From Mycobacterium paraseoulense (lineage in GTDB: Bacteria > Actinomycetota > Actinomycetes > Mycobacteriales > Mycobacteriaceae), in the NCBI RefSeq assembly GCF_010731655.1, contig NZ_AP022619.1, positions 4,588,001 through 4,652,000 on the forward strand: a DNA stretch of 64,000 bases. The letters are read 5' to 3'. Position numbers and translations under genes: made by a program. The notes under the pieces were generated by a model, which saw only the letters and a list, made by a program, of their open reading frames with translations, made no database searches and was not told the DNA's origin. Positions within the stretch are counted from its first letter, which is position 1. Every line of letters begins with the position of its first letter. Shown piece after piece: positions 1-8,257 of the stretch.

Positions 1-1132
1 CGTCCACGTCGGTGGCCCGGGCGGCCGACGCGGCCTGGGTCATGTCGATTCCGGCGGTGCCCACCATTTCGGTAGGCGCTTCCACGACGGCGCCCGCGGC
101 GGTCGGGGCACCCGCCGGCGCCTGCTGACCACCCAGCGACGCCGCGCCGATCGCCGCGCTGGCCGCGGGCTGCGGCGCGGTGTGGACCGGCACCCGAAAG
201 CGCTCCGACAGCCGCGCGGTGAGCAGTGGGATGCTGGCGCCGCCGCCGACGCTCGCGACCGCGGCCAGCCTGGATACCGCAATCCCGTTGCGGCGCAACG
301 CTTCCTCGAGGGTGTCCAGGAATCGGTCCAGCGGCTCGGAGATCAGCTGCTCCAGCTCGGCGCGCGACAGCTGCACGTTGGCGCCCGGAGCCGGCGTGAG
401 CGACGCGGTCGCGGCGGTCGACAGCTGCTCCTTGGCGCGCCGGCATGCGTCGAGCAGTCGGGCCTGCGAGCCCATCCGCACGGTGCCGGCCAGGTCGGCC
501 ATGGTGTCGTCGGAGGCCTGCAGGCGCCCGAGGACGAGCCGATCGATGGCGTCGCCGGAGAAATCGGCGTACCGCACCGACGGACCGATGTGGGTGAAGT
601 TGGCCCCGGCGTCCATCAGGGTGATCGTGGTGCCGCTGGCGCCGAAATCGCACAGCGCGACGACGCCGGCCGTCGGGAATCCCGGCCTGCCGCGTAGTGC
701 CGCGAGCGCGGCGGTGGCGTCGGACACCAGCACCGGGGTCACACCGCCGCGGGCGAGATCCGGCTGGGCGAAGAATTCGTCACGCAGCGCGGCGAACTGG
801 GCGTCGGACCAGTACGCGGGGACGGCGATGGTGATCGGTGCGCCGTAGCCGACCGTGCGGGCCATGGCCTCGATCGCCTCGACCGTCAGCACCTCGCCGA
901 GGTACTTCGTCCCGTCGGCCGCCACCAACGGGGAACGGTCGCCGACGCGCTCGACGAATCCGCGCAGCACCATTCCGTTTTCGGTCAGGTTCGGATTTTC
1001 TTCCGGCAGGCCAACTTCGGTGGGCCGGTGCTCGAAGAGGGTCAACACGGCGCTGCGGACCACCGGGGCGCCGCCCGCCGGGGCCGCCACCAGGTGGGCC
1101 GCCCCGATCGACAGCCCGAGCGACTCGCTCAT
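1..1132 (-). CDS. Hsp70-like actin-fold ATPase, 3' end outside window
   Basis: Only the first 377 codons lie in the window. The protein has an Hsp70/actin-type ATPase fold: a phosphate-binding motif DFGASGTTITLMD near the middle and the adenosine motif VASVGGGASIPLL near residue 305. After about residue 330 it becomes Ala/Pro/Thr-rich, so no normal Hsp70 substrate-binding domain is visible. This layout resembles the mycobacterial Pro/Thr-rich Hsp70-like proteins of the Rv0312/Rv2264c type (family assignment from memory). The ATG at 1132 gives the family N-terminus MSESLGLSIG. It follows a Thr-rich membrane protein gene on the same strand by 55 bp, so the two may be co-transcribed. A chaperone or peptidoglycan-linked role is inference only; cofactors such as GrpE or DnaJ are not adjacent. 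Confidence 0.75.
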   Translation of the reverse strand, partial: MSESLGLSIGAAHLVAAPAGGAPVVRSAVLTLFEHRPTEVGLPEENPNLTENGMVLRGFVERVGDRSPLVAADGTKYLGEVLTVEAIEAMARTVGYGAPITIAVPAYWSDAQFAALRDEFFAQPDLARGGVTPVLVSDATAALAALRGRPGFPTAGVVALCDFGASGTTITLMDAGANFTHIGPSVRYADFSGDAIDRLVLGRLQASDDTMADLAGTVRMGSQARLLDACRRAKEQLSTAATASLTPAPGANVQLSRAELEQLISEPLDRFLDTLEEALRRNGIAVSRLAAVASVGGGASIPLLTARLSERFRVPVHTAPQPAASAAIGAASLGGQQAPAGAPTAAGAVVEAPTEMVGTAGIDMTQAASAARATDVD

Positions 1133-1187: not shown

Positions 1188-1643
1188 TCAGCGCAGGCCG
1201 GGCGGGACCGTGATCACCGTGGGCACCCCCGGGATCGTGATCACCGACGGCAGCGATGGCAGGTGGTGCCGGTGCGGCGCCTCCTGCTGGCTGGGCTGGC
1301 GCGTGGGCTGCTGCGTCGGCTGCTGTGCCGGCGCCTCGACCGAGCTGCTGGTGGTCGGCGTCGTGGTGGTGGTCGGCGCTGTCGTCGTCGTCGTGGTGGT
1401 GGTCGTGCTCGTGCTGCTGGGGCTCGGGGTGGGGCTGGTGCCCCCTTCGCCGTGCAGCAGCTCGGTGATGCCGTACGCGATCAGCGCGATCAGGATTGCG
1501 ACGAACACCAGCCAGGCGATCAGCAGCGGAGGCTTGCGATACCACGGAGTGGGTTCGCTCTCCAGGTCGTCGAAGGCCTCGGGCTGCTCGAACCCCCCGG
1601 GCGGGTACGGCGGGGGTTCGCCGGAAGTCGGCTGGTCAGCCAT
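1188..1643 (-). CDS. Single-pass membrane protein with Thr-rich extracytoplasmic stalk
   Basis: A 151-residue protein from the ATG at 1643. Residues 1-40 are Pro/Gly/Glu-rich and likely cytoplasmic, then WYRKPPLLIAWLVF begins one hydrophobic helix of about 22 residues. After it comes a low-complexity Thr/Ser/Pro segment, encoded by the GTC/GTG-rich stretch on the plus strand around 1350-1420, then a Gln/Pro stretch and a short hydrophobic tail with repeated VITIPGVP/VITVPP motifs. A GTG at 1706 would add 21 residues; neither start has a clear ribosome binding site. Function is unknown. The topology suggests a cell-envelope anchor or sensor, and the gene lies upstream of the Hsp70-like gene on the same strand. 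Confidence 0.65.
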   Translation of the reverse strand: MADQPTSGEPPPYPPGGFEQPEAFDDLESEPTPWYRKPPLLIAWLVFVAILIALIAYGITELLHGEGGTSPTPSPSSTSTTTTTTTTTAPTTTTTPTTSSSVEAPAQQPTQQPTRQPSQQEAPHRHHLPSLPSVITIPGVPTVITVPPGLR

Positions 1644-1753
1644 GCCGTAGTTGGCATGATGGGTCGCCTGCTCGTGGAAGTCGTCGGGTGGGCCTTTGCG
1701 TTCCACGGCACCGATGGTACTGACCCCGCCTGCGGGGCTCCTGAGGCCGCCGC

Positions 1754-1787
1754 TCAGAACGTGTTGACCTTGTCGAGGCCGACGAAC
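1754..1787. repeat. Direct repeat copy A: orphan 34-bp copy of lpqJ 3' end
   Basis: Matches 3851-3884 at 32 of 34 positions. Read on the minus strand it encodes FVGLDKVNTF plus a stop, almost the last residues of LpqJ (FVSLDKVNTF), but no lpqJ body precedes it. Together with the copy inside lpqJ it brackets the kinase-MurQ gene. Confidence 0.8.
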
Positions 1788-1806
1788 GGTCTCGGGCGTT
1801 GCCGCC

Positions 1807-3525
1807 TCATTGCCCTCCGAGCGCGGCCCGCACGCGTCCCCGCGCCCGGTCGAGCCGGACGGCGGCCTCGACCGCGTCGACGCCGGCGAGCAACGCGACG
1901 ATCGCGGTTTTGGCGTGACCACCCGCGGCGGCGAGTGCTGCGGCCGCGGTTTCCTCGTCGACGCCGGCCGCGTCGCGCACGATCCGCACCGCACGGCGGC
2001 GCAGCTTCGCGCTGGTCGGCCGCACGTCAACCATCCGCGGTCCGTAGGCCTTGCCGAGCGCGATCATCACGCTCGTCGAGAGCGCGTTGAGCACGACCTT
2101 CTGCGCCGTTCCCGCCGTCAGCCGCGTCGAGCCGGCCAACACCTCTGGCCCGGTCAATAGTTCGATCACCACGTCGGCTGATGCCTCACCGCCGGGGTTG
2201 TTGACGATCGCGACCGTCAGCGCACCCGCCGCGCGCGCATGCTCGAGCGCCCCGAGCACGTAAGGCGTGCGGCCCGACGCGGTGATCCCGACAAGCGCGT
2301 CGGCGGCGGTCAATTCGGCGAGATCGGCGGGGTCGAACGCGTCTTCCGCGCCCTCGATCGCCTCGGTCAGCGCCGCCGGCCCGCCGGCGATCACACCGCG
2401 CACCAGGTCGGTGCCGAACGTGGGCGCACATTCGGCCGCGTCGAGCACGCCGAGCCGCCCGGGCGTTCCGGCACCGGCGTAGATCAGGCGGCCGCCGCGC
2501 TCGAGCCGCGCAGCGATCGCCGCGGCCGCCGCCGCGATCCGCGGGACCGCCGCCACCACCGCGGCGTGCGCCTCGCCTTCGGCGGCGACGAGCAGCGCGA
2601 CGACGTCCCCGACGGGCCGCGCGTCGAGGTCGTGCAGGCCTGGACGCACGGCTTCGGTGGCGAGCGCGTCGAGTCCTTGCACGGCAACGGTTTTGGGCGC
2701 CGCCTGCACGCGGATCACGTGCGGCTCGTGGATCGCCCCCAGCCGCAGCGCCCCGTCGAGCGCGTCGCCGGCGGCGGGGACGAGGTCGAGCTGCTCACGC
2801 AGCGCTGTGAACCCGGCCAGCCCGCCGACCATCGCGACCGGGCCATCCCCGGCCGCGCGAGCGGTCGCGGCGAGCGCCTCAGCCGCCGCACCGACGATCG
2901 CCAGCGCGGCGGCGTCGCCCTGCGCGGCGAGGACGTCGGGTGCGAAGGACGCGAGCGCGGCGGCACCGGTGAGCCGCGCGGGCCAGGTCTCGGGCGCGCC
3001 GAAGCGGGCGCGGGCGGCGTCGAGCAGCGCGGTGGACGGGCCGCGGCCGTCGTGCGCGCGCAGCGCCGCGCGCAGCCCGGCGGCGCCGATCCACGCGCCG
3101 CCGCCCTCGTCACCCAGCCACGGGCCCCAGCCGTCGGCGGTCCGCAGCGCGCCGTCAGCGTCGATCGCGAGCGCCACGACGCCGGTGCCCGCGATCAGCA
3201 CGACGCCCGGCTCCCCGTCCAGCGCGCCGGCGTGCGCGATCACGGCGTCGCTGGTCACCGCGACGCGTTCGGCCCGCAGCGAGGTCAGCAGCGCATCGCC
3301 CAGCGCCCGCGCGGCGTCCCGCGCCGCCAGCGCCCCGGCGGCGCCCACAATCACCTCATCGACCGCGCCGAACTCGCGCGCCACGTTCCGGATCGCCGCC
3401 TCCGCGGCCCGCACGCCGCCGGGCGCCGCGAGCCCCGGCGCGCCCGGCCCCCGGGCGCTGCGGCCCCGGGCCGACGCCCGGCACGACGTCTTACCCAGGT
3501 CGACGGCGAGGATCATCGCACCCAT
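1807..3525 (-). CDS. murQ: Fused BadF/NagK-type sugar kinase and MurNAc-6-phosphate etherase
   Basis: A 572-residue fusion. The N-terminal half (about 1-270) has the BadF/NagK ATPase fold: phosphate motif AVDLGKTSCR, then VVLIAGTGVVA and WGPWLGDEGGGAWIG, typical of GlcNAc/MurNAc kinases. The C-terminal half (about 275-572) is MurQ: sugar-phosphate site GAGTPGRLGVLD, catalytic-glutamate motif DAAECAPTFGT, EGAED, ITASGRTPYV and GPEVLAGSTRLTAGTAQK. The predicted path is MurNAc to MurNAc-6-phosphate to GlcNAc-6-phosphate plus D-lactate, a cytosolic peptidoglycan recycling step; that the kinase half uses MurNAc is inference. Start is ATG 3525 or ATG 3516. Some 60-bp stretches (for example 3001-3060) are about 85% GC, richer than neighbours. 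The repeats on both sides and the broken DUF488 gene next to it suggest acquisition by transfer. Confidence 0.85.
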   Translation of the reverse strand: MGAMILAVDLGKTSCRASARGRSARGPGAPGLAAPGGVRAAEAAIRNVAREFGAVDEVIVGAAGALAARDAARALGDALLTSLRAERVAVTSDAVIAHAGALDGEPGVVLIAGTGVVALAIDADGALRTADGWGPWLGDEGGGAWIGAAGLRAALRAHDGRGPSTALLDAARARFGAPETWPARLTGAAALASFAPDVLAAQGDAAALAIVGAAAEALAATARAAGDGPVAMVGGLAGFTALREQLDLVPAAGDALDGALRLGAIHEPHVIRVQAAPKTVAVQGLDALATEAVRPGLHDLDARPVGDVVALLVAAEGEAHAAVVAAVPRIAAAAAAIAARLERGGRLIYAGAGTPGRLGVLDAAECAPTFGTDLVRGVIAGGPAALTEAIEGAEDAFDPADLAELTAADALVGITASGRTPYVLGALEHARAAGALTVAIVNNPGGEASADVVIELLTGPEVLAGSTRLTAGTAQKVVLNALSTSVMIALGKAYGPRMVDVRPTSAKLRRRAVRIVRDAAGVDEETAAAALAAAGGHAKTAIVALLAGVDAVEAAVRLDRARGRVRAALGGQ

Positions 3526-3595
3526 CCTCGATCGGCCCGGGCTGTGTGTCGACAGCCGGGCACACTGGTTAAGTGGGGCGGGCGTTGCTGACCGT

Positions 3596-3817
3596 GGGGC
3601 GCTGGACCAGGTCCTGGCCGACGCAGCCCGGCGCACCACCACGGTGATGTGCAGCGAGAGCGTCTGGTGGCGCTGCCACCGGCGGCTGATCGCCGACGTG
3701 GCGGAGCTCGGTCGCGCCGTGCCGGTGCGACACCTCATGCCGGACGGCCGCCTGCGCCCACACCGCCCCGCCGGCGGTGCCCGCCGCCGCCCCGACGGCC
3801 ACCTGGTATGGGACGGC
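3596..3817 (+). pseudogene. DUF488 protein remnant, C-terminal part only
   Basis: The plus strand encodes a DUF488-like C-terminal half. Recognisable parts are TTVMCSESVWWRCHRRLIAD (the family's Cys-Glu and WRCHRR motif), VRHLMPDGR and a final DGHLVWDG. The first 60-80 residues expected of DUF488 are absent, no start codon with a ribosome binding site precedes it, and the frame runs on through the lpqJ 3' end without its own stop. The missing 5' part stops about 70 bp from the divergent kinase-MurQ start, so insertion of that gene probably deleted it. The remaining bases 3526-3850 hold nothing else I can identify. Confidence 0.6.
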
Positions 3818-3850
3818 CGAGCCGACGGTCGCCGGTCCGGCCTCGGGCCG

Positions 3851-3884
3851 TCAGAACGTGTTGACCTTGTCCAGGCTGACGAAC
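3851..3884. repeat. Direct repeat copy B, within lpqJ 3' end
   Basis: The intact copy, starting at the lpqJ stop codon. It differs from copy A at two positions (22 and 27 of the 34-bp alignment). The pair is 2.1 kb apart in the same orientation. Confidence 0.8.
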
Positions 3885-4444
3885 ATGCCGTGGCCGGTGC
3901 GGTCGTTGGTGAAGCGCGTCCCGTCGGCGGTCGCGTTGATCGTCCAGCCCGCGGCGTTGTAGGTCTTGTAGTCGATCTGGACCGTGGGGATGGCCCCCAG
4001 GTTGCCCAGCACCCACTGCACCTTGCCGCCGGAGTCGACGCTGACGCCGTTGGCGTGTTCGCCGTCTTGCAGAGGGGAGTTGGTGAACGGCGCCTCGCAG
4101 CCGACGGTGTCCTTGTTGATCTGGCAGCGCGTGGTGCCCGACTTGGTCTCGATGAACACGTAGCCGTTCTGGTCGGGCGGCAACGGGATGGTGCCGGCGG
4201 GCGCCGTCGGGTTGGCCGGGGCGGTCGGGAGGCCGGGGGCCGGGCTTGCGGTGGGCGCCGGCGGGGCCGTGCTCGGCCTGGGTGTGGGGAACGTGGGTTC
4301 CACCGGGCCCGCCCCGGGCGCGGCGACCGGGCGGCCGGCGATGGTGGAGGAACATGCGTCGATCAGCGCGGGACTGACCAGGACCGGCGCGATCAGCAGG
4401 GAACCCCCGGCAAGACTCCACCGTGCCCTTTGCGAAAACCGCAC
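3851..4444 (-). CDS. lpqJ: LpqJ-like secreted lipoprotein
   Basis: A 197-residue exported protein from GTG 4444, with GGGAG six bases upstream. The N-terminus is basic then hydrophobic and ends in ALIDAC, a weak lipobox because Asp sits at -2. A Pro/Ala/Thr-rich linker (about 35-85) leads to a compact domain with GYVFIETKSGTTRCQI, VGCEAPF and a final GMFVSLDKVNTF. The paired cysteines suggest a disulfide. Size and position next to ansP2 and dnaK match H37Rv LpqJ (Rv0344c, from memory). Function is unknown. Its last 34 bp are the source of the direct repeat that also occurs at 1754-1787. Confidence 0.75.
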   Translation of the reverse strand: MRFSQRARWSLAGGSLLIAPVLVSPALIDACSSTIAGRPVAAPGAGPVEPTFPTPRPSTAPPAPTASPAPGLPTAPANPTAPAGTIPLPPDQNGYVFIETKSGTTRCQINKDTVGCEAPFTNSPLQDGEHANGVSVDSGGKVQWVLGNLGAIPTVQIDYKTYNAAGWTINATADGTRFTNDRTGHGMFVSLDKVNTF

Positions 4445-4549: not shown

Positions 4550-5035
4550 TTATCGCCGCGTGACCGACTGGACCTCGGCGGCCCGGCGGGCGGCGGCCAC
4601 GATGCCCTGGTAACCGGTGCACCGGCAGAAGTTGCCCGACAGGCCTTCGCGGATCTCCTGGTCGGTGGGATCGGGATTGTCGCGCAGCAGCGCGGTCAGC
4701 GACATGACGAAACCCGGCGTGCAGAAGCCGCATTGCAGCCCGTGGCACTCCCGCAGCGCCGACTGCACCGGCGACAGGGTGCCGTCCGGCGCGGCGACGC
4801 CTTCGACCGTCGTCACCTCCGCCCCGTCGGCCTGCACCGCGAACATCAGGCACGAACGCACGGCCTGGCCGTCCAGCAGCACCGTGCACGCCCCGCACGC
4901 CCCGTGCTCACAGCCCAGGTGGGTGCCGGTCAGCCCGCACTTCTCCCGCAGGAAGTCGGCCAGCGTCATCCGGGGCTCGACCGCGGCCGTGGTTTCAGTT
5001 CCGTTGACGGACAGGTTGATTGGGTGTTCACGCAT
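4550..5035 (-). CDS. Molybdenum hydroxylase small (2Fe-2S) subunit, cluster 1
   Basis: A 161-residue iron-sulfur subunit of the xanthine dehydrogenase/CO dehydrogenase superfamily. It has the plant-type [2Fe-2S] motif CEHGACGACTVLLDG near residue 42 and the second cluster motif [10 protein letters not shown] with CRCTGY near residues 100-140. It relays electrons from the molybdenum site to FAD. It is last in a three-gene operon: the start overlaps the FAD-subunit gene by 8 bp. This cluster is separate from the true CO dehydrogenase operon at 28027-35399, and the large subunit does not carry the CO dehydrogenase loop, so I do not name it coxS. Confidence 0.9.
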   Translation of the reverse strand: MREHPINLSVNGTETTAAVEPRMTLADFLREKCGLTGTHLGCEHGACGACTVLLDGQAVRSCLMFAVQADGAEVTTVEGVAAPDGTLSPVQSALRECHGLQCGFCTPGFVMSLTALLRDNPDPTDQEIREGLSGNFCRCTGYQGIVAAARRAAEVQSVTRR

Positions 5036-5912
5036 GGCTTTCCCCCAGGGCTTCGGTGATCGCTTGCGTCCAGGCGCGGGCGGCCATGGTGGCGCCGACC
5101 CGCAGCCGGTAGGACGCCGACCCCTGCAGGTCGTTCGGGACGTCGTCGAGCCCGCTCATCGCGGCCTCGCCGATCTCCTCGGGCACCAGTTCGGCGACCG
5201 GCCTGCCGACCGCGGCCACCTCGGCCGCCGTGGCGCGCCGGACCGTGGGCCCCATGCCCAGCAGCCCGATCGCGCAGCGCGACACCCGATCGCCGTCGTC
5301 GAGCTGGACGGCGACCAGGGCGCCGGCGATCGCGAAATCGCCGTGCCGGCGGGAGAATTCCTCGACGGCGAACCCGCATCTGCCGTCCCACACCGGGAAT
5401 CGCACCCCGGTCAGCACCTCGTCGGCGTCCATGGTGGTCTCCCACACCCCGGCGAAGAAGTCGGCCGCCGCGATCTCGCGGCGCCGGCGCGGCGACTGCA
5501 CCTCCATCACCGCATCCAGGGTCAAAGCGACCGCCGGGTATTCACCGGCCGCGTCGGCGTGGGCGATCGACCCGCCGAGCGTGCCGCGGCTGCGGATCTG
5601 GAAGTGCCCGACGAACGGCGTCGCCCGCGTCAACAGCGGAACGGCTTGCCGCACTTGGTCATCGGCACCCACTGCGGCCTCGGTGGTGCCGGCGCCGATC
5701 CACAGCTCCGGGCCCCTGCGGTCGATGCCCTGCAGCTCGGGCAGCCGGGAGATGTCGATGAGATGGTCGAAATAGGCCAGCCGCATCGCCAGCATCGGCA
5801 CCAGGCTCTGGCCGCCGGCAAGGATTTTCGCGTCGTCGCCCAGTTCGGCCAGCAGGCCCACCGCGTCGTCGATGGTGTCGGGGCGGTGATAGTCGAACGC
5901 GGCCGGCTTCAC
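5028..5912 (-). CDS. Molybdenum hydroxylase FAD-binding (medium) subunit, cluster 1
   Basis: A 294-residue protein with the CoxM/XDH FAD-binding fold: FAD pyrophosphate motif AGGQSLVPML near residue 33 and the second motif TLGGSIAHAD near residue 110, then the C-terminal FAD domain. It passes electrons from the [2Fe-2S] subunit through FAD to an acceptor. The GTG at 5912 overlaps the large-subunit stop (GTGA), indicating translational coupling, and its 3' end overlaps the small-subunit start. The acceptor (quinone, NAD or O2) cannot be read from sequence. Confidence 0.9.
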   Translation of the reverse strand: MKPAAFDYHRPDTIDDAVGLLAELGDDAKILAGGQSLVPMLAMRLAYFDHLIDISRLPELQGIDRRGPELWIGAGTTEAAVGADDQVRQAVPLLTRATPFVGHFQIRSRGTLGGSIAHADAAGEYPAVALTLDAVMEVQSPRRRREIAAADFFAGVWETTMDADEVLTGVRFPVWDGRCGFAVEEFSRRHGDFAIAGALVAVQLDDGDRVSRCAIGLLGMGPTVRRATAAEVAAVGRPVAELVPEEIGEAAMSGLDDVPNDLQGSASYRLRVGATMAARAWTQAITEALGESHA

Positions 5913-8257
5913 CGTTGCCCCCGTTCCAGCAGGGCGGCGATCGACGCCGGGCTGGCCGGCAGCCGGGTGACCGTCACGCCCAGCGGCGCCAGCGCGTCGT
6001 TGACGGCGTTGATCACCGCCGGCACCGAGCCGATGGCCCCGCCCTCTCCGGCGCCCTTGTAGCCGCCGGGTCCCGGCCCGGGTATCTCGACGTGGCCGAA
6101 TTCGATCGGCGGCACCTCGGTGGCGGTGGGCAACAGGTAGTCGACGAAAGTCGTTGCCAGCGGGTTGCCTTCGTCGTCGTAGACCATGTCCTCCATCAGG
6201 GCGCCGCCGATGCCCTGCACGGTTCCACCGGCGATCTGGCCCTCCACCACCGACGGGTTGATCATGGGCCCGACGTCCTCGCTGACGATGTAGCGCAGCA
6301 GGGTCACCTTGCCGGTCGCCACGTCCACCTCGCAGGTGCAGGCGTGCGTCGCGTTGGACCAGTGGATGGGATTGGTCGAGTTGAACCGCGCGGTCGCCTC
6401 GAGGTTGGTCGACAGTCCCGGCGGCAGCTGCTGCGGCGAGTAGTACGCCACGTAGGCCAGCTCCCCGAATGACACCGACTTGGCCGGATCGTCGCGCGCG
6501 CTGGCCACCGAGAACGCCAGATCCACTTGCGCCTCGGGCACTTTCAGGTGGTGCGCGGCCAGCGCCACGATCTTCTCGCGCAGGATGGCGCCCGCCTCGC
6601 TAACGGCCCCGGCGGTCATCGGCGCGCTGCGGCTGCCCTGCGTCCCGGCCCCGTACGGGGTGACCGCGGTGTCACCCTGGATGGTGGCCACGTCGTCGAT
6701 GTCGGCGCCCAGCGCGTCGGCGGTCAGCTGCACGACGGTGGTCTCGATGCTGTTTCCGCTCGAGCCGCCGTTGACGTACACGTTGATCTTGCCGGTCGGC
6801 TCCATGCGGATGGTCGCGCCCTCGGTGGCCAGGTGCCCGGTCGCCGCGCCGGTCGGCTCGATGTAGGCCGAAAACCCGAGGCCCAGGTAGCGGCCCTGCG
6901 CCAGCGCCTCGGCCTGCTCCTTGCGAAACCCTTCGTGGTCAAGGATTTTCACCGCCTGCTCGAACGTGTCGATCGGGGCGACGTGGTCATACGGCATGCC
7001 GTTGGGGTTGACGTAGGGCATCTCGTCGCGGCGCAACAGGTTGCGCCGGCGCAGCTCGACCGGGTCGACGTTCATCTTGCGCGCGGCGATGTCGAGCAGG
7101 ATCTCGCGGGCCAGCGTCTCGTACTGCCAGGGGCCGCGGTAGGCGGCCAGGCCGCTGGTGTTGGAGAAGACCGTCTTGTAGTTGAAGCTGGCCTTGGGCA
7201 CCCGGTACGGGCCCGGGAAGAACATGCCGATGGCGGCCGTGGTCAGCACCGGGTACGGCGTCGGGTAGGCGCCGATGTCCTGGACGAAGTCGATGTCGGC
7301 CGCGGCGATGTTTCCCTCGTCGTCGAACGCCATCCGCGCCGTGCCGTCGACGTGGCGGGCCTGCCCCGCCGACATCAGGTTCTCGCGCCGGTCCTCGATC
7401 CACTTCAGCGCCGCCGGCACCTTGCGGGCGGCCAGCATGATGCACATGTCCTCGCGCATCGGGACGACCTTCTGGCCGAAGCCGCCGCCGGTGTCGCGCA
7501 TGATGACCCGAACACGTTGCGCCGCAATGCCCAACAGCCGGGCGCAGAACGCCCGCAGCTCGTGCGGGGTCTGGGTGGACGCCCACATCGTGAGTTCCCC
7601 GGTGGCGGCGGTCCATTCGACCACCAGGCCGCGGGTCTCGATCGGCACGGGCGCGTAAATCTGCTGATAGATCTGCTCTTTGACCACGCAGGGCGCGTTG
7701 GCGAACAGCTCCTCGTCGGGCGGGGCTCCGCCCATGCCACCGGCGACGTTGTTCGGGTAGGCGCCGTGCACCAGCACATCGGAGTCCTGCGCCCGGGTGA
7801 AATCGGTGACCGCGGGCAGCGGCTCGTAGTCCACGTCGATGAGTTCCAGCGCGTCCTCGGCGACATACCGGCTCTCGGCGACGACGAGCGCGACGGGGTC
7901 GCCGACGAACTTCGCCTCGCCCTCGGCCAGCGGCGGGCGCGGCGTGTCCGCGACGTCCTTGCCGGCGACGGCGTGCCACCCCTCCTTCGCGTCGGGGTTG
8001 AGGTCGGCGGCGGTGAACACCGCGCGCACGCCGGGCAGCGCCAGCGCGGCCGAGGCGTCGATGCCGTTGATGCGCGCCCGCGCGAACGGGCTGCGCACGA
8101 AGCAGGCGTGCAGCATGCCCGGCCGGACGATGTCGTCGACGAAGCTGCCACGGCCCGTCAACAGCCGGCCGTCCTCCACCCGCTGGACGCGGGTGCCGGC
8201 GTACCGGGGCGCCGGGGTGACCGGCCCGCCCGTTGCCGCCTGCACGTCCTGAGTCAT
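5909..8257 (-). CDS. Molybdopterin-binding large subunit with AYRGPW loop, cluster 1
   Basis: A 782-residue catalytic subunit of the xanthine dehydrogenase family. Residues 17-130 form the fumarylacetoacetase-like hammerhead domain and the rest binds the molybdopterin cofactor (GGGFGQK near residue 255; catalytic glutamate in YKGAGEGGAIGS near the end). The active-site loop at residues 372-377 reads AYRGPW. Form I CO dehydrogenase has AYxCSFR and form II has AYRGAGR, so this is neither; the cysteine that binds copper is absent. An aldehyde or N-heterocycle hydroxylase is more likely than CO oxidation, but the substrate is unknown. It is first in its operon; ACGGAG precedes the ATG at 8257. 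The divergent MocA-like gene could supply the cytosine-dinucleotide cofactor. Confidence 0.88.
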   Translation of the reverse strand: MTQDVQAATGGPVTPAPRYAGTRVQRVEDGRLLTGRGSFVDDIVRPGMLHACFVRSPFARARINGIDASAALALPGVRAVFTAADLNPDAKEGWHAVAGKDVADTPRPPLAEGEAKFVGDPVALVVAESRYVAEDALELIDVDYEPLPAVTDFTRAQDSDVLVHGAYPNNVAGGMGGAPPDEELFANAPCVVKEQIYQQIYAPVPIETRGLVVEWTAATGELTMWASTQTPHELRAFCARLLGIAAQRVRVIMRDTGGGFGQKVVPMREDMCIMLAARKVPAALKWIEDRRENLMSAGQARHVDGTARMAFDDEGNIAAADIDFVQDIGAYPTPYPVLTTAAIGMFFPGPYRVPKASFNYKTVFSNTSGLAAYRGPWQYETLAREILLDIAARKMNVDPVELRRRNLLRRDEMPYVNPNGMPYDHVAPIDTFEQAVKILDHEGFRKEQAEALAQGRYLGLGFSAYIEPTGAATGHLATEGATIRMEPTGKINVYVNGGSSGNSIETTVVQLTADALGADIDDVATIQGDTAVTPYGAGTQGSRSAPMTAGAVSEAGAILREKIVALAAHHLKVPEAQVDLAFSVASARDDPAKSVSFGELAYVAYYSPQQLPPGLSTNLEATARFNSTNPIHWSNATHACTCEVDVATGKVTLLRYIVSEDVGPMINPSVVEGQIAGGTVQGIGGALMEDMVYDDEGNPLATTFVDYLLPTATEVPPIEFGHVEIPGPGPGGYKGAGEGGAIGSVPAVINAVNDALAPLGVTVTRLPASPASIAALLERGQR

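Follow-up and report, generated by a model that had tools for sequence, protein, structure and literature searches.

MurQ, the N-acetylmuramic acid 6-phosphate (MurNAc-6P) etherase, has been described from Escherichia coli, Haemophilus influenzae (structures 1nri and 4lzj) and Streptomyces coelicolor (SCO4307), and MurK, a kinase of N-acetylmuramic acid (MurNAc), from Tannerella, where murK is linked to murQ (PMC10465942). S. coelicolor without MurQ accumulates MurNAc-6P, and the species recycles MurNAc via MurQ despite missing a MurP ortholog (PMC5061867). Among mycobacteria, MurQ-dependent recycling of MurNAc was reported by glmS rescue for Mycobacterium smegmatis (msmeg_0193), the only one of the species tested with MurQ, and one in which MurQ and MurK are named separately (PMC13041923). 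Here, we report a fusion of a sugar kinase with MurQ, encoded in a 64,000-nucleotide stretch (the window) of the chromosome of Mycobacterium paraseoulense, a slow grower (GCF_010731655.1, contig NZ_AP022619.1, positions 4,588,001 to 4,652,000, forward strand). Both enzymes are known already, and what is new is their fused form in Mycobacterium, which is quite likely encoded by an ancient accessory gene for a bifunctional muramic-acid recycling enzyme, one that arose by fusion in Mycobacterium, passed on mostly by vertical descent and was often lost or re-sited. A sequence-only reading of the stretch had noted that the tuberculosis group is usually described as lacking MurQ, which holds for M. 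tuberculosis, M. leprae and BCG, although M. tuberculosis and BCG use MurNAc (PMC6572805). Titles and abstract openings in the literature searched described neither a kinase-MurQ fusion nor MurQ across slow-growing mycobacteria, which is no proof of its absence in print, and among the matches listed public records already name the fusion protein N-acetylmuramic acid 6-phosphate etherase.

The M. paraseoulense genome is a single contig of 6.09 Mb, and the parts of its fusion gene lie in the window as follows.

1807..3516, minus strand: kinase-MurQ fusion gene, 569 amino acids (aa) (Pfam, NCBIfam and solved-structure matches; purifying selection)
2707..3516, minus strand: N-terminal BadF/NagK-type sugar kinase domain, approximately residues 1 to 270 (PF01869; solved kinases 2e2n, 8zo3, 1zc6 and NAGK)
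3247..3249, minus strand: codon of D90, predicted catalytic Asp of the kinase, preceded by Ser89 (alignment with 8zo3 and the description of Tannerella MurK)
1819..2688, minus strand: C-terminal MurQ (MurNAc-6P etherase) domain, approximately residues 277 to 566 (NCBIfam models, solved MurQ structures)
2431..2433, minus strand: E362 codon; the residue lines up with Glu in the DASECPPTFG motif of solved MurQ
2344..2346, minus strand: codon of E391 (EGAED; alignment with solved MurQ)

The ATG at 3516 is conserved among relatives and gives the 569-aa protein; in-frame alternatives are ATG 3525, three codons upstream, and ATG 3738, the mechanical start (643 aa). A NagK/BadF kinase and an intact MurQ are joined in this one polypeptide, as the sequence-only reading had claimed. 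The kinase half matched Pfam BcrAD_BadFG (PF01869; E, 3e-19) and carries the BadF/NagK phosphate motif DLGKTS and the catalytic-Asp motif SDA; kinase class, catalytic Asp and phosphate motifs are shared with the MurK kinases (8zo3, Tannerella MurK), which, unlike the fusion, are separate proteins and to which the sequence match is weak (E, 1e-13). The MurQ half resembles the E. coli, H. influenzae and S. coelicolor enzymes in its whole domain, its motifs and both glutamates, and differs from stand-alone MurQ in forming the C-terminal half of a longer polypeptide. It matched NCBIfam PRK05441 at full length (positions 4 to 295 of 300; 329.4 bits, cut-off 168), and solved MurQ structures aligned with residues 277 to 566 (E, 8e-70). 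Both E362 and E391, the putative catalytic glutamates of MurQ by comparison with work on the E. coli enzyme, were invariant in 24 of 24 aligned fusions, as was D90 in the 23 of these 24 rows with letters at that position; the residue before D90 was Ser in 18 of the 23 and Gly in 5. Ten comparisons gave dN/dS values of 0.18 to 0.29, indicating purifying selection. The closest named fusion proteins include those of M. seoulense (94%, among the matches listed) and M. europaeum (93%). The best 120 of 2,470 matches in a 5.8-billion set were all from close relatives, so they say nothing on fusions elsewhere.

The fusion was present in 46 of 248 evenly drawn Mycobacterium genomes (6 of them partial matches), and the etherase model TIGR00274 matched 44 of the 248, every one at a fusion place; what this says of stand-alone MurQ covers the sampled genomes, and M. 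smegmatis lies outside that sample. Of 396 actinobacterial genomes (236 genera), 51 had a match, with a full-length fusion in only 4, all Mycobacterium, in a survey that scored three candidates per genome and may miss second pieces. Candidate fusions in Microbacterium, Plantibacter, Arthrobacter and Leifsonia were rejected, the kinase and MurQ being separate neighboring genes. In Microbacterium ureisolvens (L082), a GH3 (nagZ-like)-AnmK-kinase-MurQ-RpiR/SIS cluster holds both enzymes in the order and strand of the fusion at approximately 45 to 50% identity, but as two genes in different frames that overlap by 8 bp (predicted start; genes at all loci were called with a simple codon-score gene finder). 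In Streptomyces loci, the genes for a sodium:solute symporter family (SSF) transporter and the kinase point away from those for a MurR-like regulator and MurQ (domains checked in L085). In three of them (L085, L077 and L083), the symporter gene adjoins the kinase (Pfam checked in L085) and is a candidate MurNAc transporter. The fusion in Mycobacterium would have arisen from two adjacent genes of such an actinobacterial nagZ-anmK-kinase-murQ-murR type cluster. Two further matches stand apart: the first 92 fusion residues alone, a gene remnant, at approximately 1998 to 2285 of L232, midway along an 877-kb contig (G121), and an actinobacterial-like kinase/MurQ pair (MurQ identity, 61%) on a contig titled as a gammaproteobacterial metagenome-assembled genome (L072), a bin that may be mislabeled.

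The fusion is probably a Mycobacterium-specific bifunctional MurNAc kinase/MurQ, as judged from gene context and domains, and likely carries out the series from MurNAc through MurNAc-6P to GlcNAc-6-phosphate and D-lactate in one protein, so that the route foreseen by the sequence-only reading appears probable. As one cytoplasmic enzyme of muramic-acid recycling, it would use ATP in its kinase half to phosphorylate free MurNAc at O6, perhaps also the N-glycolyl form of mycobacterial walls; the MurQ half would then remove D-lactate to leave GlcNAc-6-phosphate, which NagA could convert to GlcN-6-phosphate. At several chromosomal sites of the gene (lettered, see below), peptidoglycan hydrolases are among the neighbors: beta-lactamase-family hydrolases and an M15 carboxypeptidase at site B, an Amidase_2 protein at site D, and at site E an NlpC/P60 protein that also carries a YkfC SH3 domain. 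Site C has a P450 and a general amidase. AnmK, whose product is the substrate of MurQ, occurs in 2 of the 248 Mycobacterium genomes, in both starting 3 to 6 bp past the end of the fusion match.

Two other functions were considered. The kinase half could be a GlcNAc or general amino-sugar kinase in a protein that serves GlcNAc use, with MurQ secondary or separate, which we regard as unlikely: its best named kinase model is NCBIfam NagK_SO3507, yet far under the cut-off (51.9 of 370), and although 2e2n and NAGK are among its structure matches, Ser or Gly rather than Asn stands before the catalytic Asp, the kinase is tied to MurQ and, in actinobacteria outside Mycobacterium, also to MurR-like, AnmK and GH3 genes, and the product of a GlcNAc kinase needs no MurQ. 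Tannerella MurK has Thr before the Asp, and according to PMC10465942 the Asn present there in most of the glucose/GlcNAc kinases compared with it clashes with the lactyl group. A check of the lactyl space found no Asn before D90 in 23 of 23 fusions; the S133-L135 loop of MurK aligned poorly. It is hardly credible that the protein is instead a regulator like glucokinase-regulatory protein (GKRP), its SIS domains sensing MurNAc-6P and controlling the bound kinase without etherase activity. Pfam GKRP SIS domains do match the fusion, but the match to MurQ models is far stronger (329 bits), neither of the MurQ glutamates varies, and the separate MurQ of M. ureisolvens matches the same GKRP models.

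One locus common to all related mycobacteria, which the sequence-only reading had named as a sign against a transferred cassette, was not found. The left flanks of 54 Mycobacteriaceae loci and M. paraseoulense fell into six multi-member clusters and seven singletons, to which genome data added a gordonae-type cluster (n = 5). Sites B and E share stretches at different distances and are possibly one neighborhood with an insertion, so we count six or more sites; further sites are possible, since fusion genomes G250 and G253 fit no known site and G140 fits site C on one side only (82%). In representative pairs across sites, the aligned block with the gene starts at most approximately 24 bp before the start codon and ends within the last fusion codons or a few bases beyond, some pairs also sharing distant stretches. 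On the gene tree (45 of 55 loci, excluding 10 with partial genes), site labels need 8 changes (least possible, 7; shuffled mean, 28.6), and with added genomes (40 of 46, 6 partial ones left out) they need 10 (least, 7). Fusion and rpoB distances were 0.088 and 0.036 for A-A pairs, 0.141 and 0.052 for A-D pairs, and 0.192 and 0.070 for A-B pairs. The gene-less genomes need four changes on the rpoB tree (60 of 64 genomes; G007, G021, G033 and G035 absent).

The M. paraseoulense copy lies at the lpqJ locus, between the following features.

1754..1787, minus strand: lpqJ 3'-end copy A, with the TT-rich gene starting 47 bp away (sequence comparison)
3851..3884, minus strand: copy B, with which the present lpqJ ends (sequence comparison)
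3573..3850, plus strand: DUF488 gene with an internal deletion, start and C-terminal part remaining (PF04343; E, 8.3e-8; aligned with L025, L049 and L029)
3851..4444, minus strand: lpqJ-like lipoprotein gene (name from the sequence-only reading; no Pfam or NCBIfam match)
1188..1706, minus strand: Thr-rich (TT-rich) membrane protein gene, ancestral downstream neighbor of lpqJ (loci of relatives)
1..1132, minus strand: Hsp70-like gene at the start of the window, next ancestral neighbor (label by eye)
4550..8257, minus strand: coxSML-like genes, upstream neighbors of lpqJ (label by eye)

Flanking the fusion just as the sequence-only reading had described, the copies of the lpqJ 3' end (1754 to 1787 and 3851 to 3884) are each 34 bp long, share one orientation, are identical at 32 of 34 positions and lie 2,097 bp apart. 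They are far beyond chance: when 600 bp to the left of the gene was compared with 250 bp to its right, this locus had a direct-repeat score of 28, whereas 89 mismatched flank pairs reached 14 at most, and control loci totaling 82,251 bp contained nothing within 11 mismatches of a 33-nt probe for the lpqJ end. Scores were 8 to 14 at the 43 other fusion loci tested and 8 to 12 at the 35 at other sites, not above the maximum of the mismatched pairs; the scan is blind to farther repeats and to the copy-A/lpqJ pairs of L025, L027, L029 and L030, where the lpqJ end is over 600 bp away. The idea that such repeats generally mark the fusion gene was rejected, none being found at other sites within the scanned flanks. 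Copy A is kept in 5 of 10 clade loci with that flank (M. paraseoulense and 4 of the 9 relatives tested, L025, L027, L029 and L030) and was not found in relatives L021, L022, L026, L049 and L068. The absence of repeats from relatives carrying the gene, taken by the sequence-only reading as a sign against its cassette, largely holds. In L029, the fusion frame ends in the lpqJ C terminus DKVNTF; the frames of L027, L029 and L030 all terminate in residues like the lpqJ C terminus, apparently via a small later deletion.

An empty site, with the lpqJ stop followed by the TT-rich gene within approximately 80 bp, was found in 11 genomes: G031, G026, G023, G015, G029, G007 (by eye from the sequence), G083, G253, G263, G250 and G140, the fusion being elsewhere in the genome in 6 of them (G007, G083, G253, G263, G250 and G140). 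Because lpqJ adjoins the TT-rich gene there, copy A stands at the original lpqJ end; copy B is the present one. In ten other genomes, the gap holds approximately 0.8 to 4.4 kb of other genes. The DNA between copies A and B carries two genes, the fusion and DUF488, the latter full-length and open (176 aa) in clade relatives L025 and L049. DUF488 (85 to 87%) also adjoins lpqJ without the fusion there in G270, G256, G085 and G142, which have a fusion copy elsewhere; since it is enclosed by the repeats and was already beside lpqJ in these four genomes, the repeats are not the ends of a fusion-only unit. A close relative (L154, G036) has approximately 14 kb of extra genes between lpqJ and DUF488, including a 1,008-aa adenylate-cyclase-like open reading frame (by eye).

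The sequence-only reading had taken the locus for a transferred cassette, that is, a recently transferred or mobile unit with the 34-bp repeats as attachment sites or target duplication of a fusion-bearing element. The repeats are real, copy A sits at the ancestral position of the lpqJ end, the lpqJ/TT-rich gap is variable, and the block aligned across sites barely exceeds the coding sequence; this explanation is nonetheless very improbable, since the repeats enclose DUF488 as well and have no counterpart in the flanks scanned at other sites, and no integrase or transposase was noticed by eye among predicted neighbors or between the copies, no dedicated search having been made. No plasmid (0 of 72,556) or phage (0 of 50,697) record covers 80% of the fusion protein in one place. 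Composition also speaks against recent transfer. The GC content of approximately 85% noted in parts of the gene was confirmed (peaks of 0.837 per 300 bp, 0.855 per 200 bp and 0.91 per 100 bp), but the high GC resides in codon positions 1 (0.832) and 2 (0.595), whereas third-position GC (GC3) is ordinary (0.902 versus 0.920 ± 0.023 in 52 predicted genes); recent transfer judged by composition was therefore rejected, and codon use is largely normal. With GC3 ordinary, divergence roughly tracking that of rpoB and each site mostly keeping to one clade of the gene tree, the recent-transfer reading is unsupported. That a single gene instead moves between sites as a near-exact coding unit, as six or more sites, shared DNA that stops near the ribosome-binding site and in the final codons, one copy per genome and no visible carrier element might suggest, is decidedly unlikely.

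The preferred account is an old, mostly vertical accessory gene of slow growers, which would have disappeared from many lineages and changed site five times or more. An old insertion in the M. scrofulaceum clade would have brought the fusion and the DUF488 gene between lpqJ and the TT-rich gene, the left join probably by homology in lpqJ and the right join cutting the old lpqJ 3' end, whose last 34 bp would have been left as copy A. Several observations weigh against parts of this account. The TIGR00274 score of the M. paraseoulense fusion (292.9 bits) is under the equivalog cut-off (302), and the AlphaFold model, from a shallow alignment, was poor (pLDDT, 60.5; pTM, 0.42) and was not used as structural evidence. 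The named MurNAc/GlcNAc kinase 8zo3 has Asn before its catalytic Asp, which is also the case for 5 of 19 unfused kinases near MurQ in actinobacteria, so the residue at this position is a hint to specificity and not decisive. Inspection of the M. paraseoulense locus, site C, site F and the gordonae-type sites found no adjacent peptidoglycan-recycling gene, and no MurNAc transporter was identified in Mycobacterium. On the rpoB tree, which also holds gene-less genomes, site labels need 17 changes (least, 9; shuffled mean, 39.5), 6 of them for site B alone; fusion and rpoB distances correlate loosely (0.57, 741 pairs); A-E and D-E pairs have the lowest fusion/rpoB ratios, contrary to a purely vertical history; and many branches are poorly resolved in both trees. 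Transfer between clades followed by loss is a possible alternative to vertical descent. No copy A was found beside DUF488 in G270, G256, G085 or G142 (the G085 stretch stops short of the TT-rich gene), and the recombination path itself is one that we infer.

For the recovery of muramic acid, the fusion would give the slow-growing mycobacteria that carry it a ready one-protein route. Its kinase half is a candidate MurNAc kinase for actinobacteria with MurQ but without MurP. The repeated re-siting of one gene is a tractable evolutionary puzzle: near-exact movement of the gene, if true, would suggest that single genes can be relocated or captured by a route not yet described, and re-siting beside other cell-wall recycling genes may have been under selection. 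Species with and without the fusion form a natural set for comparing wall recycling.

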